Part shown: one piece after another, positions 9,128 to 28,677 of the stretch | Numbering within the stretch: the stretch's first letter is position 1 | Layout of the letters: every line of letters starts with the position of its first letter | Assembly: GCF_018390635.1 (NCBI RefSeq) | Contig: NZ_JAHBGE010000011.1 | Coordinates: forward strand, 62,001 to 126,000 | Direction: 5' to 3' | From: Ancylobacter lacus | GTDB lineage: Bacteria; Pseudomonadota; Alphaproteobacteria; Rhizobiales; Xanthobacteraceae | Length of the DNA: 64,000 bases | Notes under the pieces: model-generated | What the model was told of the DNA's origin: nothing | What the model saw: the letters and a program-made list of their open reading frames with translations, nothing else | Databases searched by the model: none | Position numbers and translations under genes: made by a program

Positions 9128-9128
9128 T

Positions 9129-9149: not shown

Positions 9150-9250
9150 CGGCGGAGCCACGTCGTCGTTGGAACTGTTCACCAGATTGACGCGATAATG
9201 GGCAGCCTTGCCCCGCGCTTCAAATTTAGGCTCGCTTGCACGCGCCTTTT

Positions 9251-9256
9251 TGTCAA
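9251..9256 (-). promoter_or_regulatory. Candidate -35 box for the amiC operon
   Basis: A perfect TTGACA on the minus strand, in the 254-bp gap between the NIPSNAP gene and amiC and about 175 bp before the ATG. The -10 element is unclear: the AT-rich CCTAAATTTG lies a few bases too far downstream for ideal spacing. The same gap holds a GCCGCC-GGAG-GGCGGC hairpin at 9310-9325 that may weakly terminate the upstream operon. Confidence 0.35.
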
Positions 9257-9331
9257 GCGGTTTTCGCCCTTCATGCCCAGCCCGCTGCACGCGTCGGCGG
9301 ACGGGCGCGGCCGCCGGAGGGCGGCGACCGT

Positions 9332-9646: not shown

Positions 9647-9659
9647 GGCGGGGCCTCTC

Positions 9660-11138: not shown

Positions 11139-11149
11139 CCCCGCCTCCC

Positions 11150-12187: not shown

Positions 12188-12239
12188 CGGCGTCCGGTTC
12201 CGGGAGTGGAGGCGGCGGGTTGGCGCAGGCGTGGTCGGG

Positions 12240-13668: not shown

Positions 13669-13695
13669 GAACGGTTCCGGGAGGATCGAGGAGCT

Positions 13696-13735
13696 TCTTA
13701 TGATAAGATGGTATACCATAAGATTGTCGCGTCAA
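13696..13735. promoter_or_regulatory. Divergent operator/promoter between DUF1185 operon and gntR
   Basis: Contains the perfect 12-bp palindrome ATGGTATACCAT (13708-13719), with a TGGT/ACCA core typical of FadR-type GntR operators. An adjoining inverted repeat TCTTAT-G-ATAAGA (13696-13708) and a third ATAAGA copy (13718-13723) flank it. On the minus strand, TTGACG (13730-13735) lies 16 bases from TACCAT (13708-13713), so the palindrome overlaps the presumed -10 of the DUF1185 operon and repression there is likely. Confidence 0.65.
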
Positions 13736-14572: not shown

Positions 14573-15841
14573 TCACCTCTCGGGATAGATCGGGAAGGCG
14601 CGGCACAGCGCCACGACCTCATCCTTGACCTCGGCGAGGGTCGCCGCGTCCTGCGGCGCCTGCATCACCCGCTCGATCCAGCCGGCGATGGTGGCGAACT
14701 CGGCCGTGCCGAAGCCGCGCGTGGTGCCGGCATTGCTGGAGAGCCGCAGCCCCGAAGGCGCTTCCGGCGGGCGGGGATCGAACGGAATCTGGTTCTTGTT
14801 CACGGCAAGGCCGGCATGCTCCAGCGCCTTGGCGACGATCTCACCGGTGAGGCCGCGCGGGGTGAGGTCCACCAGCATCAACCCCATGTCGGTGCCGCCG
14901 GAGACGATCCGCACATTCTGGGCGCCCAGCGCCTGCGCCAGCGCGCGGGCATTGGCGAGCACGGCCTCGTTATAGGCGCGAAATTCCGGCCGCAGCGCCT
15001 CGCCAAGGCAGGCCGCCTTGCCGGCGACGGCGTGCAGCATCACCGACCCCTGCACCCCGGGAAAGATGCCGTAATTGATGCGGTCGCTCAGCGCCGGGTC
15101 GTTCCACAGCACCAGCCCGCCGCGGGCACCGCGCAACGACTTGTAGGTGGTGGTGGTGACGACATGGGCGTGCGGCACCGGATCGGGGTAGAGGCCGGTC
15201 GCCACCAGCCCGGCGAAATGGGCCATGTCGACCATGAGATAGGCGCCCACCTCGTCGGCGATGGCCCGGAGCGCGGCGAAGTCCATCGCCCGGAAATAGG
15301 CCGAGCCGCCGGCGACGATCATTCGCGGCGCGTGCTCCCGCGCGAGGTCGCGGATCTCGTCGAGGTCGAGCCGCTCGGTCTCCCGGTTCACGCCGTAGCG
15401 GATAATGGAATAGTCGCGTCCGGTGAGGGTGGCGGGGTGGCCATGGCTGATGTGACCGCCGGCGGCCACGTTCATCGACAGCACGGTGTCGCCCAGCTTC
15501 AGCAGGCCGAGGAACACGCCGGCATTGGCGTTCGAGCCGGAATGGGGCTGCACATTGGCGAAGCGGGCGCCGAACAGGCGCCGCGCCCGCTCGATGGCCA
15601 GCGCCTCGATGGCGTCGGCGAATTCCGCACCACCGTAATAGCGGGCATAGGCAGGGCCTTCGACCGTCTTGTTGGTCAGCACCGAGCCCTGCGCCTCCAG
15701 CACGAGGCGGGAGACGATGTTCTCGGACGCGATGAGCTCGATCCCGTCGGCCTGCCGGCTCTCCTCGCCGCGGATGGCGGCGGCGAGTTCGGGGTCGGCG
15801 TCGAGGCCGGCGGTGAAGTAGCCGTGATGAAGTGTCGACAT
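14573..15841 (-). CDS. Serine-hydroxymethyltransferase-like PLP enzyme (variant active site)
   Basis: PLP-dependent enzyme of 422 residues, clearly SHMT-family: ELIASENIVSRLV, the LTNKTVEGPAYARYYGG segment, VQPHSGSNAN and the PLP lysine K234 in TTTTYKSLRGARGG. Two departures from housekeeping GlyA stand out: Tyr233 replaces the nearly invariant His before the lysine (THK), and the C-terminal segment reads RLSSNAGTTRGFG rather than the usual RLGTPAxTTRG type. It may act on a substituted serine or a beta-hydroxy amino acid instead of L-serine/THF. It ends the left arm of the two-armed locus, 38 bp after the aldehyde dehydrogenase. Confidence 0.85.
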   Translation of the reverse strand: MSTLHHGYFTAGLDADPELAAAIRGEESRQADGIELIASENIVSRLVLEAQGSVLTNKTVEGPAYARYYGGAEFADAIEALAIERARRLFGARFANVQPHSGSNANAGVFLGLLKLGDTVLSMNVAAGGHISHGHPATLTGRDYSIIRYGVNRETERLDLDEIRDLAREHAPRMIVAGGSAYFRAMDFAALRAIADEVGAYLMVDMAHFAGLVATGLYPDPVPHAHVVTTTTYKSLRGARGGLVLWNDPALSDRINYGIFPGVQGSVMLHAVAGKAACLGEALRPEFRAYNEAVLANARALAQALGAQNVRIVSGGTDMGLMLVDLTPRGLTGEIVAKALEHAGLAVNKNQIPFDPRPPEAPSGLRLSSNAGTTRGFGTAEFATIAGWIERVMQAPQDAATLAEVKDEVVALCRAFPIYPER

Positions 15842-15879
15842 CGGGCCTCACGAGGTGGCGGACAGGGCGAAGTGTCACC

Positions 15880-17355
15880 TCACCGGATATACCACCCCCA
15901 GGGGTCGTCCGACTCGTAGCGTGTGATCTGCTTCACCTCGAGATAGTTCGACAGCCCCCAGCGGCCGAGCTCCCGGCCGATGCCGGACTGCTTGTAGCCG
16001 CCCCACGGCGCCTCGGTGAAGGTGGGCTGCGAGCAGTTGATCCACACGATGCCGGCCCGGAGCGCGCGGGCGACGCGCTCGCAGCGGACGAGGTCCTTCG
16101 ACATCACCGCGCCGGCCAGCCCGAAGCGGCTGTCATTGGCCATGCGGACGGCGTCCGCCTCGTCGGTGAAGGGCTTCACGCACACCACGGGGCCGAAGAT
16201 TTCTTCGCGCCAGACCTCGCTGGTCTCGTCCATGTCGGCGAGAACGGTCGGCTGGAGGAAATAGCCGACATTCCGGTCGGCCGGCCGGCCACCGCCGGTC
16301 ACGATCCGTGCGCCCTGCTCGACGCCGCGGGCGATGGCGGCGAGAATCTTGTCGTACTGGCCCCTGGAGACGATGGGGCCGAGCAGCGTTCCCTCCTCAA
16401 GCCCGCTGCCGATGCGGATGCGCGCGGCTTCGGCAGCGAGGCGCTCCAGCACCGCATCATAGGCCGAAGCCTCGATCAGCACCCGGGAGGTGGCGGAACA
16501 GACCTGGCCCTGGTTCCAGAAGATGCCGAACATGATCCATTCCACAGCCTTCTCGATATCGCTGTCGGCGAAGACGATGAAGGGCGACTTGCCGCCGAGT
16601 TCCAGGCTCACCTTCTTGATGTCGGCGGCGGCGGCGGCCATCACCTTGCGGCCGGTCGGCACCGAGCCGGTGAAGGCGAGCTTGTCGACCGCGGGATGGC
16701 TGGTCAGCGGCGCGCCCGCCTCCGGGCCGAGGCCGGTGACGATGTTGAGCACGCCCGGCGGCAACCCGACCTCCTCGGCGATGGCGCCGAGTTCCAGCGC
16801 GGTGAGCGGCGTCAGTTCGGACGGCTTCAGCACAAGGGTGCAGCCCGCCGCCAGCGCCGGCGCTACCTTCCACGTCGCCATCAGCAGCGGGTAGTTCCAC
16901 GGCACGATGGCGCCGACCACCCCCATCGGCTCCAGCACCACGCTGGAGGAGAAGCGCGCATCGGCCAGCGCCACCACCTCGTCGGGGTCGGTGTCGAGCT
17001 TTTCGGCGAGGCCGGCATAGAAGCCGAAGCAGCCGGCGACATCGTCGATGTCCCACAGCGCCTCCGGCAGCGGCTTGCCATTGTCCAGCACCTCCAGCCG
17101 CGCCAGTTCCTCCCGGCGCGCGGTGACGGCGGCGGCGATCGCGCGGAGATAGCCGGCACGCTCGGTCCCGCTCAGCCGCGGCCACGGCCCCTCGTCGAAG
17201 GCGCGACGGGCGGCCGCGACGGCGCGGTCGATGTCGGCGGCGGTGCCGGCGGGTGCCTGATGGATCACCCGCTCGGTGGCGGGATCGACCACGGGAAAGG
17301 TGCCGCCGGCGGCGGGGGCGGTCCAGTGTCCGTCGATGAAGAGCTGGGTCTGCAT
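15880..17355 (-). CDS. Aldehyde dehydrogenase, betaine/aminoaldehyde type
   Basis: NAD(P)+-dependent dehydrogenase of 491 residues. Key motifs are PWNYPLLMATWKVAPALAAGCT, SLELGGKSP (general base Glu), NQGQVCSATSR (nucleophile Cys) and the C-terminal WGGYKQSGIGRELGRWGLSNYLEVKQ. This pattern is typical of betaine-aldehyde and aminoaldehyde dehydrogenases. The preceding glycosyltransferase gene is 16 bp away and the SHMT-like gene follows, so an amine-derived aldehyde is a reasonable guess. Confidence 0.9.
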   Translation of the reverse strand: MQTQLFIDGHWTAPAAGGTFPVVDPATERVIHQAPAGTAADIDRAVAAARRAFDEGPWPRLSGTERAGYLRAIAAAVTARREELARLEVLDNGKPLPEALWDIDDVAGCFGFYAGLAEKLDTDPDEVVALADARFSSSVVLEPMGVVGAIVPWNYPLLMATWKVAPALAAGCTLVLKPSELTPLTALELGAIAEEVGLPPGVLNIVTGLGPEAGAPLTSHPAVDKLAFTGSVPTGRKVMAAAAADIKKVSLELGGKSPFIVFADSDIEKAVEWIMFGIFWNQGQVCSATSRVLIEASAYDAVLERLAAEAARIRIGSGLEEGTLLGPIVSRGQYDKILAAIARGVEQGARIVTGGGRPADRNVGYFLQPTVLADMDETSEVWREEIFGPVVCVKPFTDEADAVRMANDSRFGLAGAVMSKDLVRCERVARALRAGIVWINCSQPTFTEAPWGGYKQSGIGRELGRWGLSNYLEVKQITRYESDDPWGWYIR

Positions 17356-17371
17356 GGGAGGCCTCGCGGAA

Positions 17372-18685
17372 TCAGGCGGTTCGTTCGGGCTTCGGGCGGC
17401 GCGTCGCGGCGCGGGGAACGACGAGCTTCAGTATCTCCGCCGCGGCACGGGCGGCCCCGCCGGCGGCCTGCATGATGGCGGCGTTCGCGCTCAGCCGGGC
17501 GCGCATGGCGCGGTCGCCGAGCAGCCCGCCAATGGCGTCGGCGAGTTCCTCCTCGCGCCAGCGGTAGCGGTCGAGCCGCCGGCCGACGCCGGCCTCCTGC
17601 GCGCGGGTCGCGTTGTCGTGGCCGTCCCAGCAATAGGGCATCACCAGCGAGGGCACGCCGAAATAAAGCGCTTCGCAGAAGCTGTTATTGCCGCCGTGGT
17701 GGATGAAGAGATCGGCCTGCGCCACCACGGAAGGCTGGGGAAACCAGCTGTCAACCAGCACATTGTCGGGAACCTGGCTGTACTCCTCGCGCCAGTGCCC
17801 GGCATTCACCAGGAAGCGTGCGGGAATGCCGGCGAAGACGCCGATCATCCGCCGGATCATGCCGACATCCATGGCGCCGAGCGAGCCGAAGCTGGTGAGC
17901 GCCAGCGGGGCGTCGTTGTGGCTGGCGAAGCGCGGCACGGTGTAGGGCGCCTCGCGCCGCACGCAGCCCTCGAGAAAGACGAAGCGCCGGGGGTCGAGCT
18001 TCCTCGCCCGCTCGTGGCGGATGATCGTCGGCGCCAGCAGAAGGTTGAGATGGGGCGAGGGCTCCAGGAAGCCGGGCCCCGGGCGCAGCCCGCAATCGGC
18101 CAGAAAGGCCGAGAGGCGCCGGTGGGCCGGCGCCACCGCCCGGTCGTAACGCGCGGCGAACGCCTCCCACGCCGCCGGATCGCCCGAGGGCGCGCCGGAG
18201 AGGTAAGGCGGGATGCGCGGGTCCGGAACCTCCGTCTCGGCGCAGGAGACCACCCGCACCCACGGCACGCCCGCCGTGGCGACGGCGGGGAACATGACGA
18301 CGTTGTCCAGCACGATGACATCCGGCTTCAGCCGGGCGATGAGCTGGCGCAGCGGCTCCTCCGCGCGGATGGCGGTGTCGACGATCGCCTCCCAGGTGGG
18401 CGCGACGTAGGAGTCGATCTGGTCGAGCGCGGACTGGGCGAAGGCGTCCTTGTGGCGCTCGATGAAGTCGTTCCAGTCGGTCGCGGCCTCGGGCCGACCG
18501 TCGGCGAGCTGGTATTCGGTGAAGCCATATTCCGCGAAGATGCCGCCGAAGCCGGGATGGCAGATGAACACCGGCTCCGCTCCGGCGCGTCGCAGCTCCT
18601 GGGCGATGCCGACGCAGTTCAGCGCGGCGCCGTAGCTGGCCTCGGGGAACAGCGCGACGAGGGGGGAGCGGGCGCCGCCGGTCAC
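17372..18685 (-). CDS. UGT/MGT-like glycosyltransferase A (GT1, GT-B fold)
   Basis: Probable NDP-sugar-dependent glycosyltransferase acting on a small molecule, 437 residues. The N-terminal acceptor half begins LVALFPEASYGAALNCVGIAQEL; the donor half contains LTSFGSLGAMDVG and the UGT-type signature FIHHGGNNSFCEALYFGVPS followed by WDGHDNATR, matching the donor-site D(Q/H)xxNA pattern. No signal or membrane segment. It aligns along its whole length with the second glycosyltransferase on the other arm at 23693. Start overlap with the upstream gntR stop (ATGA) implies coupling. Neither donor nor acceptor is known. Confidence 0.85.
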   Translation of the reverse strand: MTGGARSPLVALFPEASYGAALNCVGIAQELRRAGAEPVFICHPGFGGIFAEYGFTEYQLADGRPEAATDWNDFIERHKDAFAQSALDQIDSYVAPTWEAIVDTAIRAEEPLRQLIARLKPDVIVLDNVVMFPAVATAGVPWVRVVSCAETEVPDPRIPPYLSGAPSGDPAAWEAFAARYDRAVAPAHRRLSAFLADCGLRPGPGFLEPSPHLNLLLAPTIIRHERARKLDPRRFVFLEGCVRREAPYTVPRFASHNDAPLALTSFGSLGAMDVGMIRRMIGVFAGIPARFLVNAGHWREEYSQVPDNVLVDSWFPQPSVVAQADLFIHHGGNNSFCEALYFGVPSLVMPYCWDGHDNATRAQEAGVGRRLDRYRWREEELADAIGGLLGDRAMRARLSANAAIMQAAGGAARAAAEILKLVVPRAATRRPKPERTA

Positions 18686-19647
18686 GAAACCGCCCGGAAC
18701 AGGCTCGGCACGCCCCGGCCGGCAAGGCGCGGACGCTGCGCGCTCGACAGCCGCAGATGCACCGACATGAGATCGGCGGCCAGCTCCATCTGCCCGCGCT
18801 CGATATGCTCGAGGATCTGGAGATGCTCCTGGTTCGACTGCATCAGCCGGAACGTGCCGACATGGGAGCTGCCCGCCACCTTGCGACGGCGGCGGTGATG
18901 GCCGGCCAGCGCCTCGGCGATGAAGGGGTTGCCGCAGCCGCGGGCGACCAGCAGGTGGAAGTCGAGATCGATGCGGTCGAAAAGACCGCGGTCGAAGCCG
19001 GCCTCGGGCATCGCCCGCAGCAGCAGCATGGACTGCCGCAGCGCCGCCATGGCGGTGAAATCCCTGCGGAAATCCGGCAGGGAAAGCGCCAGCGGCTCCA
19101 TCGCCAGCCGGAACTCATAGCTGCGGGCGGTGGCGTCGGGCCCGACGGCGAACTGCTTCAGCAGCCATTGCTGACCCGGGGCGCGCTCCGCCAGATTTTC
19201 CTCTGCCAGCTCTAAAAGGACATTTTGTACCGTCTGCCGGGGCACATCATAACGGCGCTGCAGCGAGGCGACGGTCTGGGTCTCGGCGATGCGGCCGGCG
19301 GCGAGGTCGCGCAGCACGGCGTCGTGAATCTCGCTCTCGCGGTCGGTGGCGATGCCGGCGTCGAGCCGCCCGCCCGCCACCGGATCGGTCGCCAGCACAT
19401 AGCCGCCCTCGGAATCGGGGGTGGCCAGCCCCTGCTCGGCAAGTATCTGCAAAGCCTTGCGAACCGGGGTGCGGGAGACGTTGCACAACGACGCCAGCGC
19501 CTGTTCGGCGAGCCGCTCCCCCGGCGACATGCCGCGCTCGGCCGCGACGTCCAGTATCCGTCGCGCCAATGAGACATGGCGATGATTGAGCCGCCTGGGT
19601 TCCGTGCCGGTCACGATGCGCGTCCTCTCGGGGATGTCATTGTGCAT
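18682..19647 (-). CDS. GntR/FCD regulator with two winged-helix domains
   Basis: Transcription factor of 321 residues. Two consecutive wHTH segments are visible: about 25-80 (GERLAEQALASLCNVSRTPVRKALQILAEQGL) and about 92-150 (TVASLQRRYDVPRQTVQNVLLELAEENL), followed by an FCD-type helical ligand domain (YEFRLAMEPLALSLP, DLDFHLLVARGCGNPFIAEAL). Most GntR proteins have one HTH and dimerise; a tandem pair suggests binding of extended or paired sites. The ATG at 19647 is supported by MHNDIPERTR and by lack of homology upstream. It heads the left arm, divergent from the importer gene by 157 bp. Confidence 0.82.
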   Translation of the reverse strand: MHNDIPERTRIVTGTEPRRLNHRHVSLARRILDVAAERGMSPGERLAEQALASLCNVSRTPVRKALQILAEQGLATPDSEGGYVLATDPVAGGRLDAGIATDRESEIHDAVLRDLAAGRIAETQTVASLQRRYDVPRQTVQNVLLELAEENLAERAPGQQWLLKQFAVGPDATARSYEFRLAMEPLALSLPDFRRDFTAMAALRQSMLLLRAMPEAGFDRGLFDRIDLDFHLLVARGCGNPFIAEALAGHHRRRRKVAGSSHVGTFRLMQSNQEHLQILEHIERGQMELAADLMSVHLRLSSAQRPRLAGRGVPSLFRAVS

Positions 19648-19743
19648 TTGCGCGGTGTTCCTGCAAGCGCGAATGCCCCGCCCTGCACAATCGGCGCGCA
19701 TGTCGACGAAAGAGGCTTGACGTTTTTTTTCCTCAAATAATAC
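19640..19743. promoter_or_regulatory. Divergent control region of the two-armed glycosyltransferase locus
   Basis: Two halves of a 7-bp inverted repeat, TTGTGCA (19640-19646) and TGCACAA (19684-19690), lie 44 bp apart centre to centre, about four helical turns, which would suit a two-HTH GntR dimer. For the plus-strand importer gene, TTGACG (19717-19722) is followed by an AT-rich -10 candidate TAATAC (19738-19743; spacing slightly short). Operator assignment is inference. Confidence 0.45.
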
Positions 19744-19804
19744 TCCCACCATCGCCGGGCCATGAAGCCGGCTCCGCTCCAGCACAGCAGCCAAGGAGTC
19801 TCCC

Positions 19805-20863
19805 GTGAATGCGCATGTAGGGAAGGCGGTCTCCCGCGGGGCCGCAGCGTTGTTCGGCCTCGTTCTCGGGATCGGCACCGCCTCCGCCGCCGATCTCGTG
19901 ATCTCGAACTGGGACGGCTACATGCCCAAGGACATCGCCGAGAAATTCAAGGCGGCGACGGGGCTGGAGATCGAGGTGGTGAACCACGCCACCAACGAGG
20001 AGATCATGGGCAAGCTCATGGCCAGCGGCGGCAAGGGCTATGACGTCGTCTTCGTGTCCTCGCCCTTCGCCGAGGTGCTGAACAACCAGAAGCTGCTCGC
20101 CCCGCTCGACAAGGCCGCGATCCCGAACCTCGCCAACCTCTACCCCCAGGCGGCGGCGCTGGCCTATGACCCCGGCAACAGCTTCTCCGTGCCCTACAGC
20201 TGGGGCACGACCGGCCTGTGCTACCGCTCCGACCTCATCTCGCCCGCGCCGACGAGCTGGTGGGACCTGCTGAAGCCTTCCGACGCGGTGAAGGGCAAGA
20301 CCACCATGCTCGCGACCGACCGCTGGCTGATGGCCGCCGGCCTGCTCGCCAACGGCTATTCGGTGAACGCCACCGACCCCGCCCAGATCAAGACGGCGAC
20401 CGACACCCTCATCGCCGCCAAGAAGACCCTGCTCGCCTATGACGACACCACCTTCTATTCGAAGCTGGTCTCCGGCGAGGCGGTGCTGGTGCACGCCTGG
20501 GACGGCTGGTGCAACTACGGCATCACCGAGAATGCCGCGATCAAGTTCGTGGTGCCCAAGGAAGGGTCCGACGTCTTCGTCGACACCATCGTCGTGCTCA
20601 AGAGCTCCGAGCACAAGGACGCGGCGATGAAGTTCCTGAACTACATCCTCGACGCCAAGAACCACGCCTGGGTGGCGGAGAACATCCTCTACAAGGTGCC
20701 GAACAAGCCGGCGATGGAAAGCCTCGACAAGGCGCTGTTCGAAAAATACCCGAACCTGGCGATGACCCCGGACGAACTGCTGAAGAACGAGCTGCTGCGG
20801 GACCTCGGCCCGGCGCAGAAGCTGTATTCGCGCGCCGTCAGCGAGATCAAGGCCGCCAACTGA
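19805..20863 (+). CDS. Periplasmic amine/polyamine-type binding protein (PotD family)
   Basis: Extracytoplasmic receptor of 352 residues. The signal peptide ends near LGIGTASA; mature ADLVISNWDGYMPKDIAEKFKAATG is the PotD/PotF opening. Ligand-cleft landmarks include YSWGTTGLCYRSDLI and VHAWDGWCNYGI, the latter rich in Trp and acidic residues. The ligand is probably a cationic amine or amino-sugar-like compound, but polyamine specificity is not proven. It is the first gene of the right arm, followed by an 8-bp GC hairpin before the permease. Confidence 0.88.
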   Translation: MNAHVGKAVSRGAAALFGLVLGIGTASAADLVISNWDGYMPKDIAEKFKAATGLEIEVVNHATNEEIMGKLMASGGKGYDVVFVSSPFAEVLNNQKLLAPLDKAAIPNLANLYPQAAALAYDPGNSFSVPYSWGTTGLCYRSDLISPAPTSWWDLLKPSDAVKGKTTMLATDRWLMAAGLLANGYSVNATDPAQIKTATDTLIAAKKTLLAYDDTTFYSKLVSGEAVLVHAWDGWCNYGITENAAIKFVVPKEGSDVFVDTIVVLKSSEHKDAAMKFLNYILDAKNHAWVAENILYKVPNKPAMESLDKALFEKYPNLAMTPDELLKNELLRDLGPAQKLYSRAVSEIKAAN

Positions 20864-20871
20864 GCCGATGC

Positions 20872-20890
20872 CGCCGCGCCCGGCGCGGCG
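20872..20890 (+). other. GC hairpin after the PotD-like gene
   Basis: Perfect stem CGCCGCGC/GCGCGGCG with a 3-nt loop, starting nine bases after the binding-protein stop codon and before the permease gene. No U-tract; likely differential mRNA stability within the operon. Confidence 0.5.
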
Positions 20891-20920
20891 ACGCCCCTGC
20901 CGACCCACGGAGCCGCCGCG

Positions 20921-21781
20921 ATGTCGCCGCCGGACATGAAATCGGGCCTGCTGGTCACGCCGGCGGTGGCGTGGCTGGTGATCTTCATGCTGGCCCCCTG
21001 CCTGCTGGTGCTGAGCTATGCCTTTCTGGAGCGCGGCACCTGGGGCGGCGTGGAATACACGCTGACGCTGGAAAACATCGCCCGCGCCTTCGATCCGCTC
21101 TACGCCCGGGTGTTCCTCACCTCGGCCCGCATCGCGGCGCTGGCGACGCTGTTCGCGGTGCTGCTGGCCTATCCCGCCGCCTATGCCATCGCCCGCGCGC
21201 CGAGGCGGTGGCAGCCGGTGCTGCTGTTCTTCGCGGTGCTGCCGTTCTGGAGCAACTACCTCATCCGCACCTATGCCTGGATCGTGCTGCTGAACCGCGA
21301 GGGGCTGGTCAACAACCTGCTGAAGGCGCTCGGCTATCGCGGCGAGCCGCTCTCGATGCTCTATTCCGAGCCGGCGGTGATCCTCGGCCTCGTCTACAAC
21401 TACCTGCCCTTCGTCATCCTCGCGATCTATTCCGCGCTTTCGCGCCTCAACCCCGAGCTGATCGAGGCCTCGCACGACCTCGGCGGCGGCGCCCTGCGCA
21501 CCTTCTGGCGGGTGACGCTGCCGCTGAGCCTGCCGGGAGTCGCCGCGGGCGGGGTGTTCGTGTTCGTGCTCTCCATCGGCAATTTCGTCACCCCCGCCCT
21601 GCTCGGTGGCGGGCGCTTCCAGATGATCGGCAACCTCGTCTACGACCAGTTCCTCGCCGCCAACGACTGGCCGTTCGGCGCCGCGCTCGGCATGGTGCTC
21701 ATCGCCATCATGACCGCGTTGCTGCTGGTGCAGGCACGGCTCGCCGCCCGCGCCGGGGGCGACACGGCGAGGCCGGCATGA
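20921..21781 (+). CDS. ABC importer permease, PotB type
   Basis: Inner-membrane permease of 286 residues with six predicted helices. The family coupling motif is present as EASHDLGGGALRTFWRVTLPLSLPG. It begins MSPPDMKSGLLVTPAVAWLVIFMLAPCLLV and ends in a membrane helix. The downstream permease start overlaps its stop (ATGA). It should pair with the PotC-type subunit. Confidence 0.9.
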   Translation: MSPPDMKSGLLVTPAVAWLVIFMLAPCLLVLSYAFLERGTWGGVEYTLTLENIARAFDPLYARVFLTSARIAALATLFAVLLAYPAAYAIARAPRRWQPVLLFFAVLPFWSNYLIRTYAWIVLLNREGLVNNLLKALGYRGEPLSMLYSEPAVILGLVYNYLPFVILAIYSALSRLNPELIEASHDLGGGALRTFWRVTLPLSLPGVAAGGVFVFVLSIGNFVTPALLGGGRFQMIGNLVYDQFLAANDWPFGAALGMVLIAIMTALLLVQARLAARAGGDTARPA

Positions 21782-22566
21782 GCAGCGTGCGCGCGCCTTC
21801 CCGCCTCGGTGGCCTCGTGCTGGCGGCGATCTTCGCCTTCCTGTACGTGCCCATCGCCGTGCTCGTGCTGCTCTCCTTCAACGCCAGCGGCCTGCCGACC
21901 GCCTGGACCGGCTTCTCGCTGAAATGGTACGGCGCGCTGGCCGGCAACGCGAACATCCTGCACGCGGCCTGGAACACGCTCGTCGTCGGGCTGGCGGCCA
22001 CCGCGATCTCAACCGTGCTCGGCACGCTGCTGGCCATCGGGCTGGAAACCCGGCGGCGCAAGGGCACCGCCATCGAGGCGCTGGCCTTCGCGCCCATGGT
22101 AATTCCCGACATCGTGCTGGCGGTGGCGCTGCTCACCTTCTTCTCCAGCCTCGACATCACGCTCGGCCTGCCCACCATCGTCGTCAGCCACGTGATCTTC
22201 GACCTCGCCTTCGTCAATGCGGTGGTGCGGGCGCGGCTGAAGCATTTCGATTTCTCGATCGTGGAAGCCTCCCGCGATCTCGGCGCCGGCTACGTCACCA
22301 CCTTCCGCCGCATCCTGCTGCCGGCGCTGGCTCCCGCCATCATCGCCGGGGCGCTGCTGGCCTTCACCCTGTCGATCGACGAGTTCATCATCGCCTTCTT
22401 CACCGCCGGGGCGGGACGCTCCTCCATCACCCTGCCCATGCAGATCTATTCGATGATCCGGTTCGGCATCACGCCGGAGGTGAACGCCCTCGCCACCCTC
22501 GTCATGGGCCTGAGCGCGACAGTGCTGATGATCTCGCAATGGCTCAACAAGGAGCAGGCGCCATGA
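21778..22566 (+). CDS. ABC importer permease, PotC type
   Basis: Second permease, 262 residues. The coupling loop is EASRDLGAGYVTTFRRILLPALAPAI and the preceding helix set is FVNAVVRARLKHFDFSIV, normal for PotC/PotI. The segment LSIDEFIIAFFTAGAG is the conserved family feature near the cytoplasmic gate. ATGA overlaps on both sides tie it to the PotB-type and PotA-type genes. Confidence 0.9.
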   Translation: MSSVRAPSRLGGLVLAAIFAFLYVPIAVLVLLSFNASGLPTAWTGFSLKWYGALAGNANILHAAWNTLVVGLAATAISTVLGTLLAIGLETRRRKGTAIEALAFAPMVIPDIVLAVALLTFFSSLDITLGLPTIVVSHVIFDLAFVNAVVRARLKHFDFSIVEASRDLGAGYVTTFRRILLPALAPAIIAGALLAFTLSIDEFIIAFFTAGAGRSSITLPMQIYSMIRFGITPEVNALATLVMGLSATVLMISQWLNKEQAP

Positions 22567-23648
22567 ATGCGCGTGAACGCGCGGCCGCGGCCGCTCCGCC
22601 AACCCACCCGGCGGTGCTGCGCATCGAGACGGTGTCGAAGGCGTTCGGCGCGGTCACGGCGGTGGATCGCGTCTCGCTCGACATCAGGCCGAACGAGTTC
22701 TTCGCGCTGCTCGGCCCATCCGGCTGCGGCAAGACCACCCTGCTGCGGATGCTGGCCGGCTTCGAGACGCCGACCGGCGGGCGCATCCTGCTCGACGGGC
22801 AGGACATCTCGCCGCTGCCGCCGGAAAGGCGACCGCTTAACCTCATGTTCCAGTCCTACGCCCTGTTCCCGCACATGAGCGTGCGGGCGAACCTCGCCTA
22901 TGGGCTGGAGATGGAACGCCGCCCCCGCGCCGAGATCACGCGGCGGGTCGACGAGCTGCTCGCCACCACCGGCCTCTCCGCGCTGGCCGACCGCCGGCCG
23001 GACCAGCTCTCCGGCGGCCAGAAGCAGCGCGTCGCGCTGGCCCGCGCGCTCATCAAGCGGCCCAAGGTTCTGCTGCTCGACGAGCCGCTCGGCGCGCTCG
23101 ACAAGAAGCTGCGCGAGCAGATGCAGCTGGAGCTGAAGAGGCTGCAGCACGAGGTGGGCATCACCTTCGTCATGGTCACCCACGACCAGGAGGAAGCGCT
23201 TGTCATGGCCGACCGCATGGCGATCCTGCGCGACGGACGGCTTCTGCAGTGCGGCACGCCGCAAGAGGTCTACGAGACCCCGGTGGACCGCTTCGTCGCC
23301 GACTTCATCGGGGTGATGAACTTCATCGAGGGCGCGGTGGACCCTGGCGGCGTGTTCCGCGCCCCGGGCCTCGACGTGCCCCTCGCCCGCCCCGCCGGCA
23401 CGGGCGCCCTCGCGGTGCGGCCGGAGGCGGTGGAGGTGCTGGCCGGCCCGGCAGCGGGTATGCCGGGCACGGTGCTGGACGTCGCCTATCACGGCCTCGA
23501 CCGGGTGCTGCATGTCCGCACCGAGGCCGCCCCGCTGCTGCGGGTGCGGGTCGCCGCCCGGCACGCGGCGGAGTGGCGTGCCGGCGATGCGGTCTCGCTG
23601 CGGATCGAGCCCGCGCATTGCCTGTTCTTTCCCGACCCCGCCCCGTGA
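22563..23648 (+). CDS. ABC importer ATPase, PotA type
   Basis: ATPase of 361 residues energising the amine importer. Walker A is GPSGCGKTT, the Q-loop lies in MFQSYALFPHM, the signature is LSGGQKQRVALARAL and Walker B is VLLLDEPLGALD, followed by VTHDQEEAL. The C-terminal TOBE_2 domain (about 280-360) ends in AHCLFFPDPAP. Start by ATGA overlap with the PotC-type gene. The glycosyltransferase gene follows after 44 bp. Confidence 0.92.
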   Translation: MNARERAAAAAPPTHPAVLRIETVSKAFGAVTAVDRVSLDIRPNEFFALLGPSGCGKTTLLRMLAGFETPTGGRILLDGQDISPLPPERRPLNLMFQSYALFPHMSVRANLAYGLEMERRPRAEITRRVDELLATTGLSALADRRPDQLSGGQKQRVALARALIKRPKVLLLDEPLGALDKKLREQMQLELKRLQHEVGITFVMVTHDQEEALVMADRMAILRDGRLLQCGTPQEVYETPVDRFVADFIGVMNFIEGAVDPGGVFRAPGLDVPLARPAGTGALAVRPEAVEVLAGPAAGMPGTVLDVAYHGLDRVLHVRTEAAPLLRVRVAARHAAEWRAGDAVSLRIEPAHCLFFPDPAP

Positions 23649-23692
23649 ACCCACGGACAACCGAACCGACCGAGCCGGAGGAAGCCCCGACC

Positions 23693-24979
23693 ATGACGCA
23701 GAAGACCATCGCCTTCTTCCCGGAAGCGGCCTATGGGCCCGCGCTCAACTCCGTCGGCATCGCGCAGGCGGTGGAGGCGCTCGGCCACAAGGCCGTCTTC
23801 CTGTCCGATCCCGGCTTCGTCGGCGTCTATGAGGGCTACGGCTTCGAGGCCCACCCGGTGAACCTCTCCGCCCCGATGCCGCCGGAGCAGATGGCGAAGT
23901 TCTGGGAGGACTTCATCAACGGCCACATCCCCAACTTCCGCAAGGCGCCGATCGACCAGATCGACAACTATGTGAAGGACTGCTGGACCGCCATCGTCGA
24001 CAGCGCGAAATGGGCGCAGAAGGACCTGCCCGACGTGCTTGCCCGGGTGAAGCCGGACCTCATCTGCGTCGACAACGTCATCCTGTTCCCGGCCATCAAG
24101 CAGCATGGCGTGCCCTGGGTGCGCATCATCTCCTGCTCGGAGAACGAGATCGAGGACGAGGCGATTCCGCCCCACCTGTCCGGCTGCCGGCAGGACGACA
24201 CCGCCGGCCACGCCGCCTTCCGCGACCGCTTCAACGCCGCGATCCAGCCGATCCACGACGACTACAACGCCTTCCTGGCCGAGAACGGGCTGGAGCCCTA
24301 CCCCCTCGGCCAGTTCTTCGAGGCCTCGCCCTTCATGAACCTGCTGCTCTACCCCGAGCCGGTGAAGTTCGACCGCGCCCACCCGCTCGACCCCGCGCGG
24401 TTCCAGTATCTGGAAGGCTGCGTGCGCCGCGAGAAGCCCTATGAGGTTCCCGCCTTCGCCGCGAACGCCGACAAGCCGCTGCTCTACGTCTCCTTCGGCA
24501 GCCTCGGCGCCGGCGACACCGAGCTGCTGAAGCGGCTCATCGCCACCATCGGCACCCTGCCCTACCGGGCGCTGGTGAATGTCGGCGACTACAAGGACCA
24601 GTACGCCGACGTGCCGCCGAACGTGGTGATCGACAGCTGGTTCCCGCAGCCCTCGGTCATCCCGCAGGTGGACGCGGTGATCCACCACGGCGGCAACAAC
24701 TCCTTCACGGAATGCCTGTTCTTCGGCAAGCCGGCGATCATCATGCCCTATGTCTGGGATGGCCACGACAACGCCACCCGGGTGGAGGAGACCGGCCACG
24801 GCTTCAGGATGCCGCGCTACGACTGGACCGATGCCGATCTCGCCGCCCGGCTGGAGGCCTGCATCACCGATCCCGCGATGAAGGCGAAGCTCGCCGCGAC
24901 CAGCGCCCACATGCAGGCGCGCAACGGGCAGAAGAAGGCCGCCGGCATCCTCGACGGGCTGCTGGAGGCGCGGGCGTGA
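23693..24979 (+). CDS. UGT/MGT-like glycosyltransferase B (GT1, GT-B fold)
   Basis: Second GT-B glycosyltransferase, 428 residues, paralogous to that at 17372. The N-terminal half starts KTIAFFPEAAYGPALNSVGIAQAV; shared acceptor-side features are KPDLICVDNVILFPA and FQYLEGCVRREKPYE. The donor-side signature is VIHHGGNNSFTECLFFGKPA then WDGHDNATRVEETG. GGAGGAAG eight bases upstream supports the ATG at 23693. It overlaps the next cupin gene (GTGA). Having one copy per arm suggests two successive or alternative acceptors, or a heteromer; this is inference. Confidence 0.85.
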   Translation: MTQKTIAFFPEAAYGPALNSVGIAQAVEALGHKAVFLSDPGFVGVYEGYGFEAHPVNLSAPMPPEQMAKFWEDFINGHIPNFRKAPIDQIDNYVKDCWTAIVDSAKWAQKDLPDVLARVKPDLICVDNVILFPAIKQHGVPWVRIISCSENEIEDEAIPPHLSGCRQDDTAGHAAFRDRFNAAIQPIHDDYNAFLAENGLEPYPLGQFFEASPFMNLLLYPEPVKFDRAHPLDPARFQYLEGCVRREKPYEVPAFAANADKPLLYVSFGSLGAGDTELLKRLIATIGTLPYRALVNVGDYKDQYADVPPNVVIDSWFPQPSVIPQVDAVIHHGGNNSFTECLFFGKPAIIMPYVWDGHDNATRVEETGHGFRMPRYDWTDADLAARLEACITDPAMKAKLAATSAHMQARNGQKKAAGILDGLLEARA

Positions 24980-25338
24980 GCGCGCATCTGGCCTCCTCCG
25001 CGCCACACATCCACGGCGCCACCGCCTATAACGACCTCGTCGACTGGGGCGAGCAGCCCGACTGCGCGGAGGGGCCCTCCCGCTCCTCCGGCCGCCTGCT
25101 GTTCAAGGGCCCCGGCAACCAGCCTGAGACCGGCATCTGGGTGTGCACGCCCGGTCGCTGGCGGCTTGCCATCCCCCGCGACGAGTTCTGCCACTTCGTC
25201 GCCGGCCGGGCGGTCTATCGCTCGGACACCGGCGAGACCATCGAGGTCGGACCCGGCACGGCGGTGATGTTCCCCGCCGGCTGGACCGGCGAATGCACCG
25301 TGATCGAGACGATGCGCAACATCTACATGCTGGCGTGA
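24976..25338 (+). CDS. Small cupin protein 1 (cupin_3/DUF861 type)
   Basis: Single-domain cupin of 120 residues. The start is GTG, overlapping the glycosyltransferase TGA (GTGA). Shared pattern with its neighbour: LVDWG, SRSSGRLLFKGP, GIWVCTPGRW, RDEFCHFVAGRAVY and VMFPAGWTGECTV. The cupin_3 group includes ureidoglycine aminohydrolase-like and sugar- or amine-handling proteins. The histidine-poor barrel (one His in DEFCHF) argues against a classical metal dioxygenase. The role is unknown. Confidence 0.78.
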   Translation: MSAHLASSAPHIHGATAYNDLVDWGEQPDCAEGPSRSSGRLLFKGPGNQPETGIWVCTPGRWRLAIPRDEFCHFVAGRAVYRSDTGETIEVGPGTAVMFPAGWTGECTVIETMRNIYMLA

Positions 25339-25386
25339 GCGGCGTTCCGCCCGCGTCACCTCCTCCCCCGTCCTGAAGGCACCGCC

Positions 25387-25734
25387 ATGACCGCCACCCC
25401 GCTCATCCGCAACCCGCTCGCCCTCACCGATCTCGTCGACTGGGGCGCGATCCCCACCATGATCGAGGGCGAGAGCCGCACCTCCGGCGTGCTCATCCAC
25501 AAGGGGCCGGACGGCCAGTCCGAATGCGGCCTGTGGGTCTGCACCCCCGGCAAATGGGAGTGCCACGTCACCCGCGACGAGTTCTGCCACTTCCTGGAGG
25601 GCCGCAGCACCTATGTGCACGAGAGCGGCGAGGTGATCGAGATCGTGCCTGACACCGCCGCCTTCTTCCCGAAGGACTGGAAGGGTGTCTGCACCGTCCA
25701 TGAGACGGTGAAGAAGGTCTACATGATCCGCTGA
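25387..25734 (+). CDS. Small cupin protein 2 (cupin_3/DUF861 type)
   Basis: Product of 115 residues, tandem paralogue of the preceding gene, 48 bp downstream. The same positions are kept: LVDWGAIP, SRTSGVLIHKGP, GLWVCTPGKWE, RDEFCHFLEGRSTY and FFPKDWKGVCTV. Retention of two diverged copies side by side suggests a heteromer or two related ligands. No signal peptide. The function is not assignable beyond a cupin fold with probable small-molecule binding. Confidence 0.78.
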   Translation: MTATPLIRNPLALTDLVDWGAIPTMIEGESRTSGVLIHKGPDGQSECGLWVCTPGKWECHVTRDEFCHFLEGRSTYVHESGEVIEIVPDTAAFFPKDWKGVCTVHETVKKVYMIR

Positions 25735-25791
25735 GTCGCGGCGCGTCTTCCCGCCGGCGCGCCGGCGGGCTCTCCAGCACAGGTGCCCTCC

Positions 25792-27303
25792 ATGATCCGC
25801 TTCGACCCCGCCCGGCCGGTGTTCTTCGCCCGCGGACGCTATCTCCCCGCGGCGGGCGGGACCTCCCCGGTGATCGATCCCGCCACCCTCGCCATAGTCG
25901 GCACCATCGCGGCGACGCGGCCGGACGAGATGGAATGGGTGCTGGAGGCGGCGCGGCAGGCCCAGCGCGGCTGGGGCCGGCTCGACGCCAGAAGCCGGGC
26001 CGCGGCGCTGCACAAGATCGCGGCGCGGATCGAGCAGGCCGACATGCGCCCGCTCGCCGAGCTGATGACGCGGGAGATGGGCAAGCCCTACCCGGAATCC
26101 ATCGGCGAGGTGGCCAACTGCGCGCCGGTCTTCCGCTATTTCGCCGAGATGGCCCGCGACGAGGCCGGCAAGGTGGCCGGCACCACCCAGGCCGGCTCGT
26201 TCCAGTATGCCCGCTATGAGCCGCTGGGCCTGAGCGTGCACATCATGCCCTTCAACTTCCCCATCCTGCTGATGTGCTGGACGGTGGCGGCGTCGCTGGC
26301 GGCGGGCAATGGCTGCATCCTGAAACCGGCCCCGGCGACGACGCTCACCACCCTCGCCTTCATGGAGATGTTCGCCGACCTGCCGGAAGGGCTGGTCGCG
26401 TGCCTGCCGGGCGGGGCGGAACTGGCACAGGCGCTGATCGAATCGCCGCTCACCCACGCGGTCGCCTTCACCGGCTCCACCGCCGCCGCCAGCGCGGTGG
26501 CGGCAGCGGCCGGTGCCCGCATGAAGCCGGCGGTGATCGAGGGCGGCGGCAGCGACCCGCTGATCGTCACCGCCCATGCCCCGCTCGACGTCGCGGCGGC
26601 CGGCGCGGTGACCGCCGCCTTCCACATGTCGGGGCAGGTCTGCACCTCGGCGGAACGGCTCTTCGTGGTGGACGCGGTGCACGACGCCTTCGTGGAGCGC
26701 TTCGCCGCGCAGACCGCGCGGCTGCGGATCGGAAACGGCCTTGGCCGCCACGAGATCGGCCCGCTGGTCAGCGAGGCGGCGCGCGCCAAGGTCATCCGCC
26801 TCGTGGAGGACGCGACGGCGAAGGGCGCCCGGATCGTCGCCGGCGGCCGCATCCCGCCCGACCAGCCGGTCGGCTGGTTCTATGAGCCGACCATCCTCAC
26901 CGGTTGCACCCCGGACATGGCCATCCTGCAGGAGGAATGCTTCGGCCCGGTCGCCGCCCTCACCCGCGTCGCCGATTTCGACGAGGCGGTCGCCCGCGCC
27001 AATGACAGCGCCTTCGGCCTCGGCGCCTCGGTCTTCACCACCTCGCTCGAAGAGGCGATGGAGGCGGCGGAGCGGCTCGAAGCCGGCATGGTGTGGGTGA
27101 ACAACCCGCTGATCGACAACGACGCCCTGCCCTTCGGCGGCTGGAAGCGCTCCGGCATGGGGCGCGAACTCTCCCGCCTCGGCCTCGACACCTTCCGCCG
27201 CGCCAAGATGGTGGTCATCGACCACAAGCCGGCGGTGCAGGGCTGGTGGTACCCATACCCCGACGACTGGTTCCATGACGCCGGCGGGCGCAAGCACGTC
27301 TAG
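25792..27303 (+). CDS. Aldehyde dehydrogenase with EGGGSDP variant
   Basis: Aldehyde dehydrogenase of 503 residues. The nucleophile is in MSGQVCTSAERL; the general-base segment is VIEGGGSDPLIV, where the usual ELGGK is replaced by EGGGS (compare ELGGSDP in succinate-semialdehyde dehydrogenases of the YneI/Sad group). PFNFPILLMCWTVAASLAAGNG is the Rossmann motif. The C-terminus GGWKRSGMGRELSRLG is followed by an aromatic tail (GWWYPYPDDWF). The ATG at 25792 is preferred over a GTG three codons earlier. It is the second aldehyde dehydrogenase of the two-armed locus. Confidence 0.88.
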   Translation: MIRFDPARPVFFARGRYLPAAGGTSPVIDPATLAIVGTIAATRPDEMEWVLEAARQAQRGWGRLDARSRAAALHKIAARIEQADMRPLAELMTREMGKPYPESIGEVANCAPVFRYFAEMARDEAGKVAGTTQAGSFQYARYEPLGLSVHIMPFNFPILLMCWTVAASLAAGNGCILKPAPATTLTTLAFMEMFADLPEGLVACLPGGAELAQALIESPLTHAVAFTGSTAAASAVAAAAGARMKPAVIEGGGSDPLIVTAHAPLDVAAAGAVTAAFHMSGQVCTSAERLFVVDAVHDAFVERFAAQTARLRIGNGLGRHEIGPLVSEAARAKVIRLVEDATAKGARIVAGGRIPPDQPVGWFYEPTILTGCTPDMAILQEECFGPVAALTRVADFDEAVARANDSAFGLGASVFTTSLEEAMEAAERLEAGMVWVNNPLIDNDALPFGGWKRSGMGRELSRLGLDTFRRAKMVVIDHKPAVQGWWYPYPDDWFHDAGGRKHV

Positions 27304-27371
27304 GCCCGCGCGGGCCCGCCACGCCTGAACCGAAGACCCGCCCCTTCCCGGCGCGACTGACAGGACATCCC

Positions 27372-28568
27372 ATGATCATCACCCTTCTCGGCGGCGCCGG
27401 CCTCATGGGCGCGGGCATCGCGCGCGACCTGCTCTCCGACCGCGCCATCGTCGATTTCGCGACGCTGCGCATCTGCGACGCGGTGCGCCCGCGCATGGAG
27501 GCACTGGCCGCCGAGCTCGCCGATCCCCGCGTCGCGCTGGTGGACCTCGACGCCGCCGACCCCGGCGCCCTGGCCGCGGCGCTGGAGGGCGCGGACATCT
27601 GCATCAACTGCGTGCCGACCCTGCTCGGCCACCAGATGGCGATCTTCGAGGCGGCGCTGGCGGCACGGGTGCCCTATCTCGATCTCGGCGGGCTTGGGGT
27701 CTACACCGTGAAGCAGAAGGCCGAGCACGCCCGCTTCCGCGACGCCGGGGTCACCGCGGTGATCGGCGCCGGCGCCGATCCCGGCATGTCGAACGTCATC
27801 TGCCGCGCCGTGGCGGACGAGCTGGACGAGATCGACGCCATCAATCTCTACTGGGCCGCGGAACTGGTCGGCGACGAGAATCCGGTGCTGATGCCGCCCT
27901 ACAGCATCTCCACCGTGCTGGCCGAATACGCCCACCCCAGCACCCAGTTCTACGACGGGCGCCATGTCGAATGCCCGCCCATGAGCGGCGTCGAGGTGCT
28001 GGAGCTGCCGGAGCCGTGGGGGCGCTGCGAGTTCATGCACTCGCCCCATTCCGAGCAGCTCACCGTGCCGCTGGCCGCCGGCATCGCCGACAAGGGCATC
28101 CGCGAATTCACCTGGAAGCTGCACCTGCCCCACCGCGAGCACGAGGCCTGGGTCGGGCTGGTGAAGGCCGGCTTCGGCGCCTATGACGACCCGGTGGAGA
28201 TCGGCGGGGTGAAGGTGAAGCCGCTCGACGTGCTCAGCAAGGTCATCGAGCGCAACATCGCCCGCAACGCCGAGCGTATGCCGGCGCAGGACAGCCACGA
28301 GATCCACTTCGCCATCGGCCGCGGCCGGCGGGGCGGGGTCGAGCATGTGGTGCGGATCGAGGTGGTGGTGACGCCGGACCCGCTCTATCAGGGCTATACC
28401 GACGCCTGCACCTCGATGAACGGCGCCATTGCCGCCCAGCTCATCCTGAAGACGCCGCGCCGCCCGGGCGTGTGGGCGCCGGAAGAGTATTTCGACATAC
28501 CGAGCTACTTCGCCGAGCTGGAGAAGCGCCATTTCCGCATCTCGAAGACGGTGACCCCCGCCGCCTGA
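27372..28568 (+). CDS. Saccharopine-dehydrogenase-like NAD(P)-binding protein
   Basis: Oxidoreductase of 398 residues. It opens with a Rossmann motif, ITLLGGAGLMGAGIARDLL, and then has DICINCVPTLLGHQMAIFEAALAARVPYLDLGG and GAGADPGMSNVICR, matching the saccharopine dehydrogenase NADP-binding and C-terminal domains. The family catalyses reductive condensation or oxidative cleavage of amino acids with keto acids or aldehydes (saccharopine, carboxynorspermidine). Here it could join or split an amine and a carbonyl compound. It is the last gene of the right arm; 68 bp separate it from the aldehyde dehydrogenase. Confidence 0.82.
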   Translation: MIITLLGGAGLMGAGIARDLLSDRAIVDFATLRICDAVRPRMEALAAELADPRVALVDLDAADPGALAAALEGADICINCVPTLLGHQMAIFEAALAARVPYLDLGGLGVYTVKQKAEHARFRDAGVTAVIGAGADPGMSNVICRAVADELDEIDAINLYWAAELVGDENPVLMPPYSISTVLAEYAHPSTQFYDGRHVECPPMSGVEVLELPEPWGRCEFMHSPHSEQLTVPLAAGIADKGIREFTWKLHLPHREHEAWVGLVKAGFGAYDDPVEIGGVKVKPLDVLSKVIERNIARNAERMPAQDSHEIHFAIGRGRRGGVEHVVRIEVVVTPDPLYQGYTDACTSMNGAIAAQLILKTPRRPGVWAPEEYFDIPSYFAELEKRHFRISKTVTPAA

Positions 28569-28677
28569 TCGCAGGGCCGGCGGCTTGCCCGGCGCGGAGC
28601 CGGCGCGCCGTTCCGCATTATCCACCCGTCCGAACGCCGCGGCGCTGCGTAGAAGGGCGGGGGCATGGGAGGCGGTG

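Follow-up and report, generated by a model that had tools for sequence, protein, structure and literature searches.

A widespread glycosyltransferase and cupin gene set beside an amine-type importer, and its possible use of a transient sugar in amine breakdown

Introduction

Why would an importer of the polyamine family share a locus with two small-molecule glycosyltransferases (GT1 and GT2) and two cupins (CupA and CupB)? The question arises from a stretch of 64,000 nucleotides of Ancylobacter lacus (contig NZ_JAHBGE010000011.1; the whole stretch is hereafter the window, and all coordinates are positions within it). Here a left arm on the minus strand, carrying a serine hydroxymethyltransferase (SHMT), an aldehyde dehydrogenase (ALDH1), GT1 and a GntR/FCD regulator with two helix-turn-helix stretches, diverges from a right arm on the plus strand, carrying PotD, PotB, PotC, PotA, GT2, CupA, CupB, a second aldehyde dehydrogenase (ALDH2) and a saccharopine-dehydrogenase-like protein. 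We find that most of these genes belong to one co-travelling system, real and widespread, and we lean, tentatively, towards reading the locus as a copy of a system for taking up an amine-like compound and breaking it down via a transiently glycosylated intermediate, the sugar being recycled. The initial annotation of this DNA knew of no described pathway with this gene set, and likewise no description of it was found in the open-licence listings to which our literature search was confined.

A co-travelling gene set in bacteria and archaea

A contig scan with GT2 gave 439 stretches, 403 of which were confirmed as relatives, and the best 80 of the 403, mostly from Rhizobiaceae, Phyllobacteriaceae and Rhodobacteraceae-type bacteria, were kept as loci. 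Counts are given for the 79 loci longer than 8 kb (L079, 3.3 kb, was dropped), a gene being called present when a match at at least 35–65% identity, or at least 55% for the glutamine synthetase (GS)-like gene, lay anywhere in the locus. The core genes, and GT1 and GntR as their usual companions, were each matched in 75–79 of the 79 loci: GT2 in all 79, PotC and PotA in 78, PotD and PotB in 77, GntR and CupB in 76, and GT1, CupA and ALDH2 in 75; the loci without a match to some importer, cupin or ALDH2 gene (L024, L052, L068, L072, L074 and L082) include several cut by contig ends. The best 80 loci lean to close relatives, hence genomes were sampled as well, yielding 32 regions from 31 of the 34 GT2-positive genomes besides the window's own (G268, and G569 and G637 at <8 kb, were left out, and L123 among the regions repeats locus L051). 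In these CupB was present in 31, CupA in 28, PotD in 27, ALDH2 in 26, GntR in 20 and GT1 in 16. The reverse search, with CupB against 150 genomes of the order, found a relative in 13, the window's own included, and the remaining 12 were all GT2-positive too, with the cupin at most 1 kb from GT2. The earlier proposal that these genes form one system thus held in both directions of search.

Relatives of GT2 occur in 8/398 genomes of the phylum and 23/397 of the order (the window's genome is in both counts), in 9/99 genomes of a distant family of the same phylum (f44) and in 3/149 genomes of the host family, all three of the window's own genus and the window's included; four other genomes of that genus, listed in the family scan, had no GT2 relative. 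The system, carried by many soil bacteria, is spread over rhizobia, rhodobacters, f44 and at least two haloarchaea, and as it recurs across families and in archaea the arrangement is not a chance one. Its heart is GT2 with a cupin, the importer and ALDH2 are their usual company, and GT1 and GntR are a frequent addition.

Other genes of the window locus, which the initial annotation had counted in, fared differently. ALDH1 (38 of the 79 loci, seven of the 32 sampled regions) and the saccharopine-dehydrogenase-like gene (40 and four) are accessories and not conserved members, and SHMT is probably a local addition outside the conserved system, since none of the 79 loci holds a match of 60 bits to it. 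The gene itself is there as described, yet by its sequence it is an ordinary SHMT rather than an SHMT-like enzyme, passing the NCBI subfamily cut-off (NF000586, 536.6 bits vs. 335). Further partial members in the 79 loci are the GS-like gene (22), the DAO-type oxidases DAO1 (18) and DAO2 (1) and an AmgK-like kinase (6); the corresponding counts in the sampled regions are GS 1, DAO1 1, DAO2 4, DAO3 1 and the kinase 13. None of the 79 loci holds both the saccharopine-dehydrogenase-like and the GS-like gene, a mutual exclusion which clades account for, so that it is weak evidence for one replacing the other.

Within the genus the history of the locus appears mixed. Identity of the window GT2 to Rhizobiaceae copies among the best 80 of 403 reaches 87%, but it is only 79–80% to the copies in two genomes of its own genus; in a tree of 65 thinned rows one of the latter copies (G084) sits apart from that of the window and groups with a Rhodobacteraceae-type copy. 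Most simply, the locus would have entered the genus more than once. The own-genus loci L118/L160 and L119/L161 (GT2 79–80% identical) carry another version of the system, with an AmgK-like kinase, ALDH1 and DAO2 and without the saccharopine-dehydrogenase-like gene. Elsewhere, L155 (a Pseudomonas frederiksbergensis plasmid) holds at 9019–10300 fragments of a gene resembling GT1 together with a DAO-like match, close to type VI secretion genes; the rest of the system is missing there, and the locus looks like a decayed remnant.

Glycosyltransferases without the catalytic histidine

GT1 and GT2 share 50% identity and both exceed the Pfam gathering score (EryCIII-like_C/UDPGT), bearing out the earlier view of a paralogous GT-B pair, and the GT1 copies form one clade with 100/100 support in the same tree, which fits one old duplication. 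A plain macrolide-type identity was rejected, as both miss the MGT subfamily cut-off (TIGR01426, 260 bits; GT1 119.9, GT2 109.1) and both are without the acceptor-activating His. We take this residue to be the second His of the OleI GHGHVNP motif and placed it by alignment with the closest solved structures; among 207 distinct rows (120 GT2 and 87 GT1) not one has His there, GT2 having Pro in 119/120 and Met in the other, and GT1 having Ala in 87/87. Over the same rows there is hardly any variation in the nucleotide-sugar block HHGGNNS, in the Glu that follows it or in WDGHDN. Glu11 and Asp127, the latter at the dyad position, are invariant, and in both paralogues Arg144, Glu150 and Glu152 show little or no variation, two Streptomyces rows having Pro instead of Glu150.

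Because the acceptor-activating His is uniformly lost with the dyad-position Asp kept, we infer an amine (N-) acceptor for both enzymes. In PMC12246196, Arabidopsis UGT76C enzymes, which have Cys in place of His, are reported to prefer N-acceptors over O-acceptors; the same source reports that Cys20→Ala in UGT76C2 lowers N- and raises O-glycosylation relative to the wild type with N-transfer still favoured, so the loss of His alone is no proof of N-acceptors.

The closest solved structures to GT2 are those of spider-mite UGT203A2 (2.4e-51) and UGT202A2 (5.7e-26), ahead of bacterial macrolide glycosyltransferases, and PMC4652392 suggests both a bacterial origin of mite UGTs by horizontal acquisition and a role in detoxification. 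The lineage that donated the mite enzymes may have been close to the operon family, though the latter is without the His that UGT203A2 has at that position. The same resemblance lends support to a rival explanation, namely that the operon glycosyltransferases detoxify, trapping a toxic aldehyde or xenobiotic that arises or is encountered in amine breakdown as a stable glycoside which is exported or stored, off the main carbon path. We think this rather unlikely: the mite enzyme keeps the His that is missing here, sugar kinases in some operons suggest that the sugar is removed again, and GT2, unlike a side detoxifier, stays with the importer, cupins and ALDH across families and into haloarchaea.

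A probable importer of amine-like compounds

Membership of the window PotD in the PotD family is clear, and its best PDB relatives are spermidine/putrescine-binding proteins; it misses the equivalog cut-off, at 144 bits vs. 582. We compared its pocket with what we take to be the ligand-contact residues of E. coli PotD. W34, Y37, W229, D257 and Y293 are kept in 95/95 rows, and the remainder are replaced, E36 by Gly (94/95), Y85 by Pro (93/95), D168 by Thr (95/95), E171 by Trp (95/95) and W255 by Val, Ile or Leu (94/95). With several polyamine-contacting residues lost, the ligand is probably not a plain polyamine, and the idea of a strict polyamine importer is weakened by this comparison. As the replaced positions are near-invariant in the 95 rows, W255 excepted, the copies probably share a single, non-standard ligand.

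The imported compound is still likely to be of amine type, given the PotD-family importer itself, the GS-like and FAD-oxidase genes in some copies and the surroundings of the haloarchaeal ones. What stands of the amine-type importer of the initial annotation is therefore the PotD family and its amine-linked neighbours, a plain polyamine being doubtful. The variable partners of the system include the saccharopine-dehydrogenase-like gene, a GS-like gene with a DAO-type oxidase, and a DAO-type oxidase with ALDH1; the pair of GS-like and DAO-type genes adjoins GT1 in 18 of the 79 loci, mostly Mesorhizobium. The GS-like proteins that were scanned score 190.5 and 249.7 bits and miss the NCBI GGputSyn cut-off of 650.

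Two haloarchaea, Natronorubrum aibiense and Natrialba magadii, carry on plasmids a glycosyltransferase with 62% identity to GT2, and after it come one cupin, an ALDH, an opposite-strand ROK-family gene and a phosphohexomutase gene. The islands around these copies contain GS-family, FAD oxidoreductase, type 1 glutamine amidotransferase, aminotransferase and PotD-type importer genes, and a GS-family protein of another haloarchaeon is reported, in PMC8394153, to be a glutamate-putrescine ligase. Copies in Streptomyces (37% identity) are distant relatives only. One, on a plasmid, has the glycosyltransferase directly after a PotDBCA set and between transposase genes, with no cupin match at the locus; its PotD has much of the window's pocket in common, in that it keeps SNWDGY, AWDGW and VDT, but has TERW for TDRW and differs in the loop at the S83–Y86 positions. 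The second Streptomyces glycosyltransferase copy has neither an importer nor a cupin match.

These neighbours also bear on the possibility that the operon builds and keeps a glycosylated amine, such as an osmolyte, a signal or an antibiotic, with the importer recovering a precursor. Two glycosyltransferases with a conserved nucleotide-sugar motif would suit such a product. We nonetheless hold it to be quite unlikely, as the ALDHs, the FAD oxidases and the haloarchaeal islands point to breakdown, and no exporter or biosynthetic synthetase, save the GS-like one, was seen among the flank families scanned (a subset of those recurring in at least three loci).

Candidate sugar-salvage genes and cupins

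A gene for a kinase of about 345 amino acids (family c6), whose best NCBIfam family is AmgK (NF045698), lies between CupB and ALDH2 in 13 of the 32 sampled regions and six of the 79 loci. GT1 is present in all 13 regions and in five of the six loci; the remaining locus, L055, ends short of where GT1 would lie. In 6/6 genomes tested the operon kinase occurs together with a second, less similar copy elsewhere. The 17 operon copies share a mean mutual identity of 58% (53% with family f44 as one row) and only 38% (37%) with seven other copies, which share 49% among themselves; no row has lost the catalytic Asp or Asn. AmgK is the anomeric kinase of N-acetylmuramic acid and N-acetylglucosamine (GlcNAc), and according to PMC5371407 it makes the sugar alpha-1-phosphate. 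For the haloarchaeal plasmids, the best family of the ROK protein is an ATP-dependent glucokinase and that of the mutase is phosphoglucosamine mutase.

Either the AmgK-like kinase, or the ROK protein with the phosphohexomutase, appears suited to returning free sugar to sugar-1-phosphate, and the two sets would yield the same product by unrelated enzymes. That two unrelated routes of this kind adjoin the same glycosyltransferase is the main ground for our proposal that the sugar is put on and then removed. The window's operon has no such kinase; the sole AmgK-like match in its genome, the only one in which neighbours were examined, is a TsaE-APH fusion overlapping an NTP_transferase gene, which we take to be the AmgK-MurU arrangement. 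Separately, an N-acylglucosamine 2-epimerase-family gene, of which one member was scanned, flanks the system in four Shinella loci and one Rhizobium locus (L022 at 1665–3005 on the minus strand, L010, L021, L033 and L035) and is a possible further sugar-handling gene.

The initial annotation had offered two options, glycosylation followed by cleavage and oxidation, or the building of a glycosylated amine. Sequence by itself does not separate them; the first is favoured by the sugar-salvage genes found in some copies. These genes would also fit a different explanation, in which the importer takes up a ready-made N- or O-glycoside, the glycosyltransferase-fold proteins work in reverse or serve as binding partners, and the sugar is cut off by the cupins and salvaged by the kinase. 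The missing acceptor-activating His and a PotD pocket stripped of acidic residues, yet near-invariant, agree with glycoside import. A UDP-dependent reverse reaction, however, would presumably give UDP-sugar directly with no need of a kinase, and five of the 32 sampled regions have no PotD relative close by, and we regard this explanation as unlikely.

Removal of the sugar would fall to the cupins or to water. CupA and CupB both exceed the gathering score of Pfam PF05899 (Cupin_3), and the cupin fold was checked for CupB, whose AlphaFold2 model has a mean predicted local distance difference test score (pLDDT) of 96.1. Its closest folds by Foldseek are 3bcw, of unknown function, and then EutQ; PpnP nucleoside phosphorylases appear at ranks 10, 16, 25, 34 and 50 among the 50 matches listed. 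The modelled likeness to PpnP may offer a lead towards N-glycoside cleavage, though it is no better than the likeness to other cupins, and that the cupins open a glycosylamine is our guess.

A proposed route and the evidence against it

Catabolism of an amine through a transient N-glycoside could account for the core genes, and is the reading which we tentatively prefer. The PotDBCA-type importer would bring the compound in, and GT2, with GT1 where present, would transfer a sugar (a candidate being of the glucose or GlcNAc type) from a nucleotide-sugar to a nitrogen of the substrate or of its amino-aldehyde, masking the amine so that the aldehyde could not cyclise or react, much as gamma-glutamylation does in the Puu pathway. 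In this locus the saccharopine-dehydrogenase-like enzyme, and in other lineages FAD oxidases, would make the aldehyde, which ALDH2 and, in copies that have it, ALDH1 (both of the aldehyde dehydrogenase family) would convert to the acid. The labile glycosylamine might then be opened by the cupins or spontaneously, and the free sugar returned to sugar-1-phosphate by the AmgK-like kinase in some operons, by ROK and phosphohexomutase in haloarchaea and, in the window's host, perhaps by the housekeeping pair of AmgK and NTP-transferase families. A stronger form holds that the sugar is a removable protecting group: family 1 glycosyltransferases without the His would place it on the nitrogen of an amine or amino-aldehyde, the masked aldehyde would be oxidised by ALDH, amino acid and free sugar would be released by a cupin or by water, and the sugar would be recharged by a dedicated anomeric kinase or by ROK kinase and mutase. 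Bacteria and archaea would then have in common a glycosyl version of the gamma-glutamyl pathway. This form is possible but, in our judgement, doubtful.

Several observations weigh against the preferred route, beginning with the lost polyamine contacts of PotD and the behaviour of the UGT76C2 mutant. The core is not complete everywhere, CupB being missing from one, PotD from five and ALDH2 from six of the 32 sampled regions, and 13 of these regions have within the fetched flanks no GT1, ALDH1, kinase, GS, DAO or saccharopine-dehydrogenase-like gene. The AmgK-like kinase is confined to the loci and regions counted above and falls below the cut-off of its family (243.4 bits vs. 500), as do the haloarchaeal ROK protein (149.8 vs. 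500) and mutase (291.7 vs. 439). The core showed no glycosyl hydrolase, and catalysis by the cupins is putative. Finally, the residue after the donor-motif Asp, Gln in UGT203A2, is Gly in 118/120 GT2 and 87/87 GT1 rows, which may indicate an unusual donor or lost activity. Together with the lost His, this Gly would agree with catalytically dead glycosyltransferases that act as nucleotide-sugar sensors or as scaffolds for the cupins. We judge that to be very unlikely, since near-invariance of HHGGNNS, its following Glu and WDGHDN over 207 rows argues for a kept chemical function, as does that of Glu11, Asp127, Glu150 and Glu152 outside the two Streptomyces rows.

Layout, control region and neighbouring genes

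All genes of the initial annotation were recovered by Pfam in two arms around the divergent control region, and its description of the layout stands (Table 1). Pfam searches for PotC, PotA, GT2, CupA and GntR were run on longer mechanical open reading frames (ORFs), and the starts given are our choice. The 4-bp overlaps at PotB/PotC, PotC/PotA, GT2/CupA and GntR/GT1 are the pattern expected for operons.

Table 1. Features of the locus, as positions in the window
Feature	Position	Strand	Evidence
SHMT, serine hydroxymethyltransferase	14573..15841	-	Pfam SHMT 1.9e-133
ALDH1, accessory aldehyde dehydrogenase	15880..17355	-	Pfam Aldedh
GT1, second glycosyltransferase paralogue without catalytic His	17372..18685	-	Pfam EryCIII/UDPGT-type GT-B
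GntR/FCD regulator	18682..19647	-	Pfam GntR, two stretches, and FCD, on ORF 18682-19878; start is the ATG at 19647
Divergent control region, 157 bp with chosen starts	19648..19804	.	GntR-PotD gap
Promoter/operator-like element: TTGACGT (starting at 19717), T-run, AATAATACT	19717..19744	+	Conserved in intergenic regions; putative function
PotD-type binding protein	19805..20863	+	Pfam SBP_bac_8
PotB-type permease	20921..21781	+	Pfam BPD_transp_1; NCBIfam PotB 258.9 bits, cut-off 348 not reached
PotC-type permease	21778..22566	+	Pfam BPD_transp_1 on ORF 20509-22566
PotA-type ATPase	22563..23648	+	Pfam ABC_tran and TOBE_2 on ORF 21924-23648; TIGR01187 potA 358.3 bits, above the 355.6 cut-off
GT2, core glycosyltransferase without catalytic His	23693..24979	+	Pfam on ORF 23249-24979
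CupA, start overlapping GT2 end by 4 bp	24976..25338	+	Pfam Cupin_3 on ORF 24712-25338
CupB	25387..25734	+	Pfam Cupin_3
ALDH2, core aldehyde dehydrogenase	25783..27303	+	Pfam Aldedh
Saccharopine-dehydrogenase-like oxidoreductase, accessory	27372..28568	+	Pfam Sacchrp_dh

The motif TTGACGT is present in 81 of 92 distinct GntR–PotD intergenic regions (before one duplicate was dropped, in 82/93, where mononucleotide shuffling gave 1.5 on average); in 52 of the 82 it is followed by AATA[AC]. It is best taken as part of a conserved control region rather than as a proven operator, related sequences sharing ancestry. The saccharopine-dehydrogenase-like protein has as PDB relatives 4ina (1.3e-13) and, as a distant one, carboxyspermidine dehydrogenase 8deb (1e-9).

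Directly 3' of the locus, at 28585–30119 on the plus strand, lie an FAD amine-oxidoreductase-type gene (28585–29700) and a DCC1-like gene; the former is unsupported as a missing amine oxidase, with matches in 0/79 related loci at 40% identity. A separate cluster to the left (4991–13719, minus strand) encodes AA_synth (PF06684), an alpha/beta hydrolase, a luciferase-like monooxygenase, an ALDH, two Peripla_BP_5/6 binding proteins and a BPD_transp_2 permease. Three of its genes were searched for in the loci fetched with GT2, and none recurs there; L136 and L137 show weak matches, to the hydrolase only.

Comparison with known systems

New here are the His-less glycosyltransferases with most of the donor motif kept, the sugar-kinase partners that some copies have (with a phosphohexomutase in the haloarchaea) and the gamma-glutamyl-amine-type genes that adjoin some copies. 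If the preferred reading is true, the system would represent a new catabolic logic, reversible glycosylation serving as a protecting group and not as detoxification or a biosynthetic end point, and, if shown, a new way of breaking down amines. It would also give a testable function to a large, conserved group of His-less family 1 enzymes that records annotate merely as 'glycosyltransferase' or 'glycosyl transferase family 1', to a Cupin_3 group without a known role and to an AmgK-like paralogue that could be mistaken for a cell-wall enzyme, and the spread across rhizobia, rhodobacters, f44 and haloarchaea suggests a common environmental compound as the substrate.

The operon glycosyltransferases share the Pfam GT-B family and the conserved donor motif with the family 1 enzymes MGT/OleD and UGT203A2, but have Pro (GT2) or Ala (GT1) for the acceptor-activating His and stay below the MGT cut-off. 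The cupins share Pfam Cupin_3 (DUF861) and the fold with EutQ-type proteins, whereas those of the window are paired, CupA overlapping the end of GT2 with its start, and have no eut-type neighbours among the window ORFs scanned. AmgK-MurU sugar salvage in peptidoglycan recycling has a parallel in the AmgK-like paralogue dedicated to some operons; the operon kinase, however, lies below the AmgK cut-off, no cell-wall link was seen, and no nucleotidyltransferase gene was noticed beside it, none having been searched for systematically. The closest parallel in logic is the Puu pathway (PuuA/B/C/D), which combines an importer, masking of the amine, oxidation to an aldehyde, an ALDH and release of the mask, and whose GS-like and FAD-oxidase types of gene adjoin some copies of the present system. 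No GS-like gene was found among the window ORFs scanned, and where the Puu pathway masks its amine by gamma-glutamylation, the conserved step here is a glycosyltransferase with cupins.

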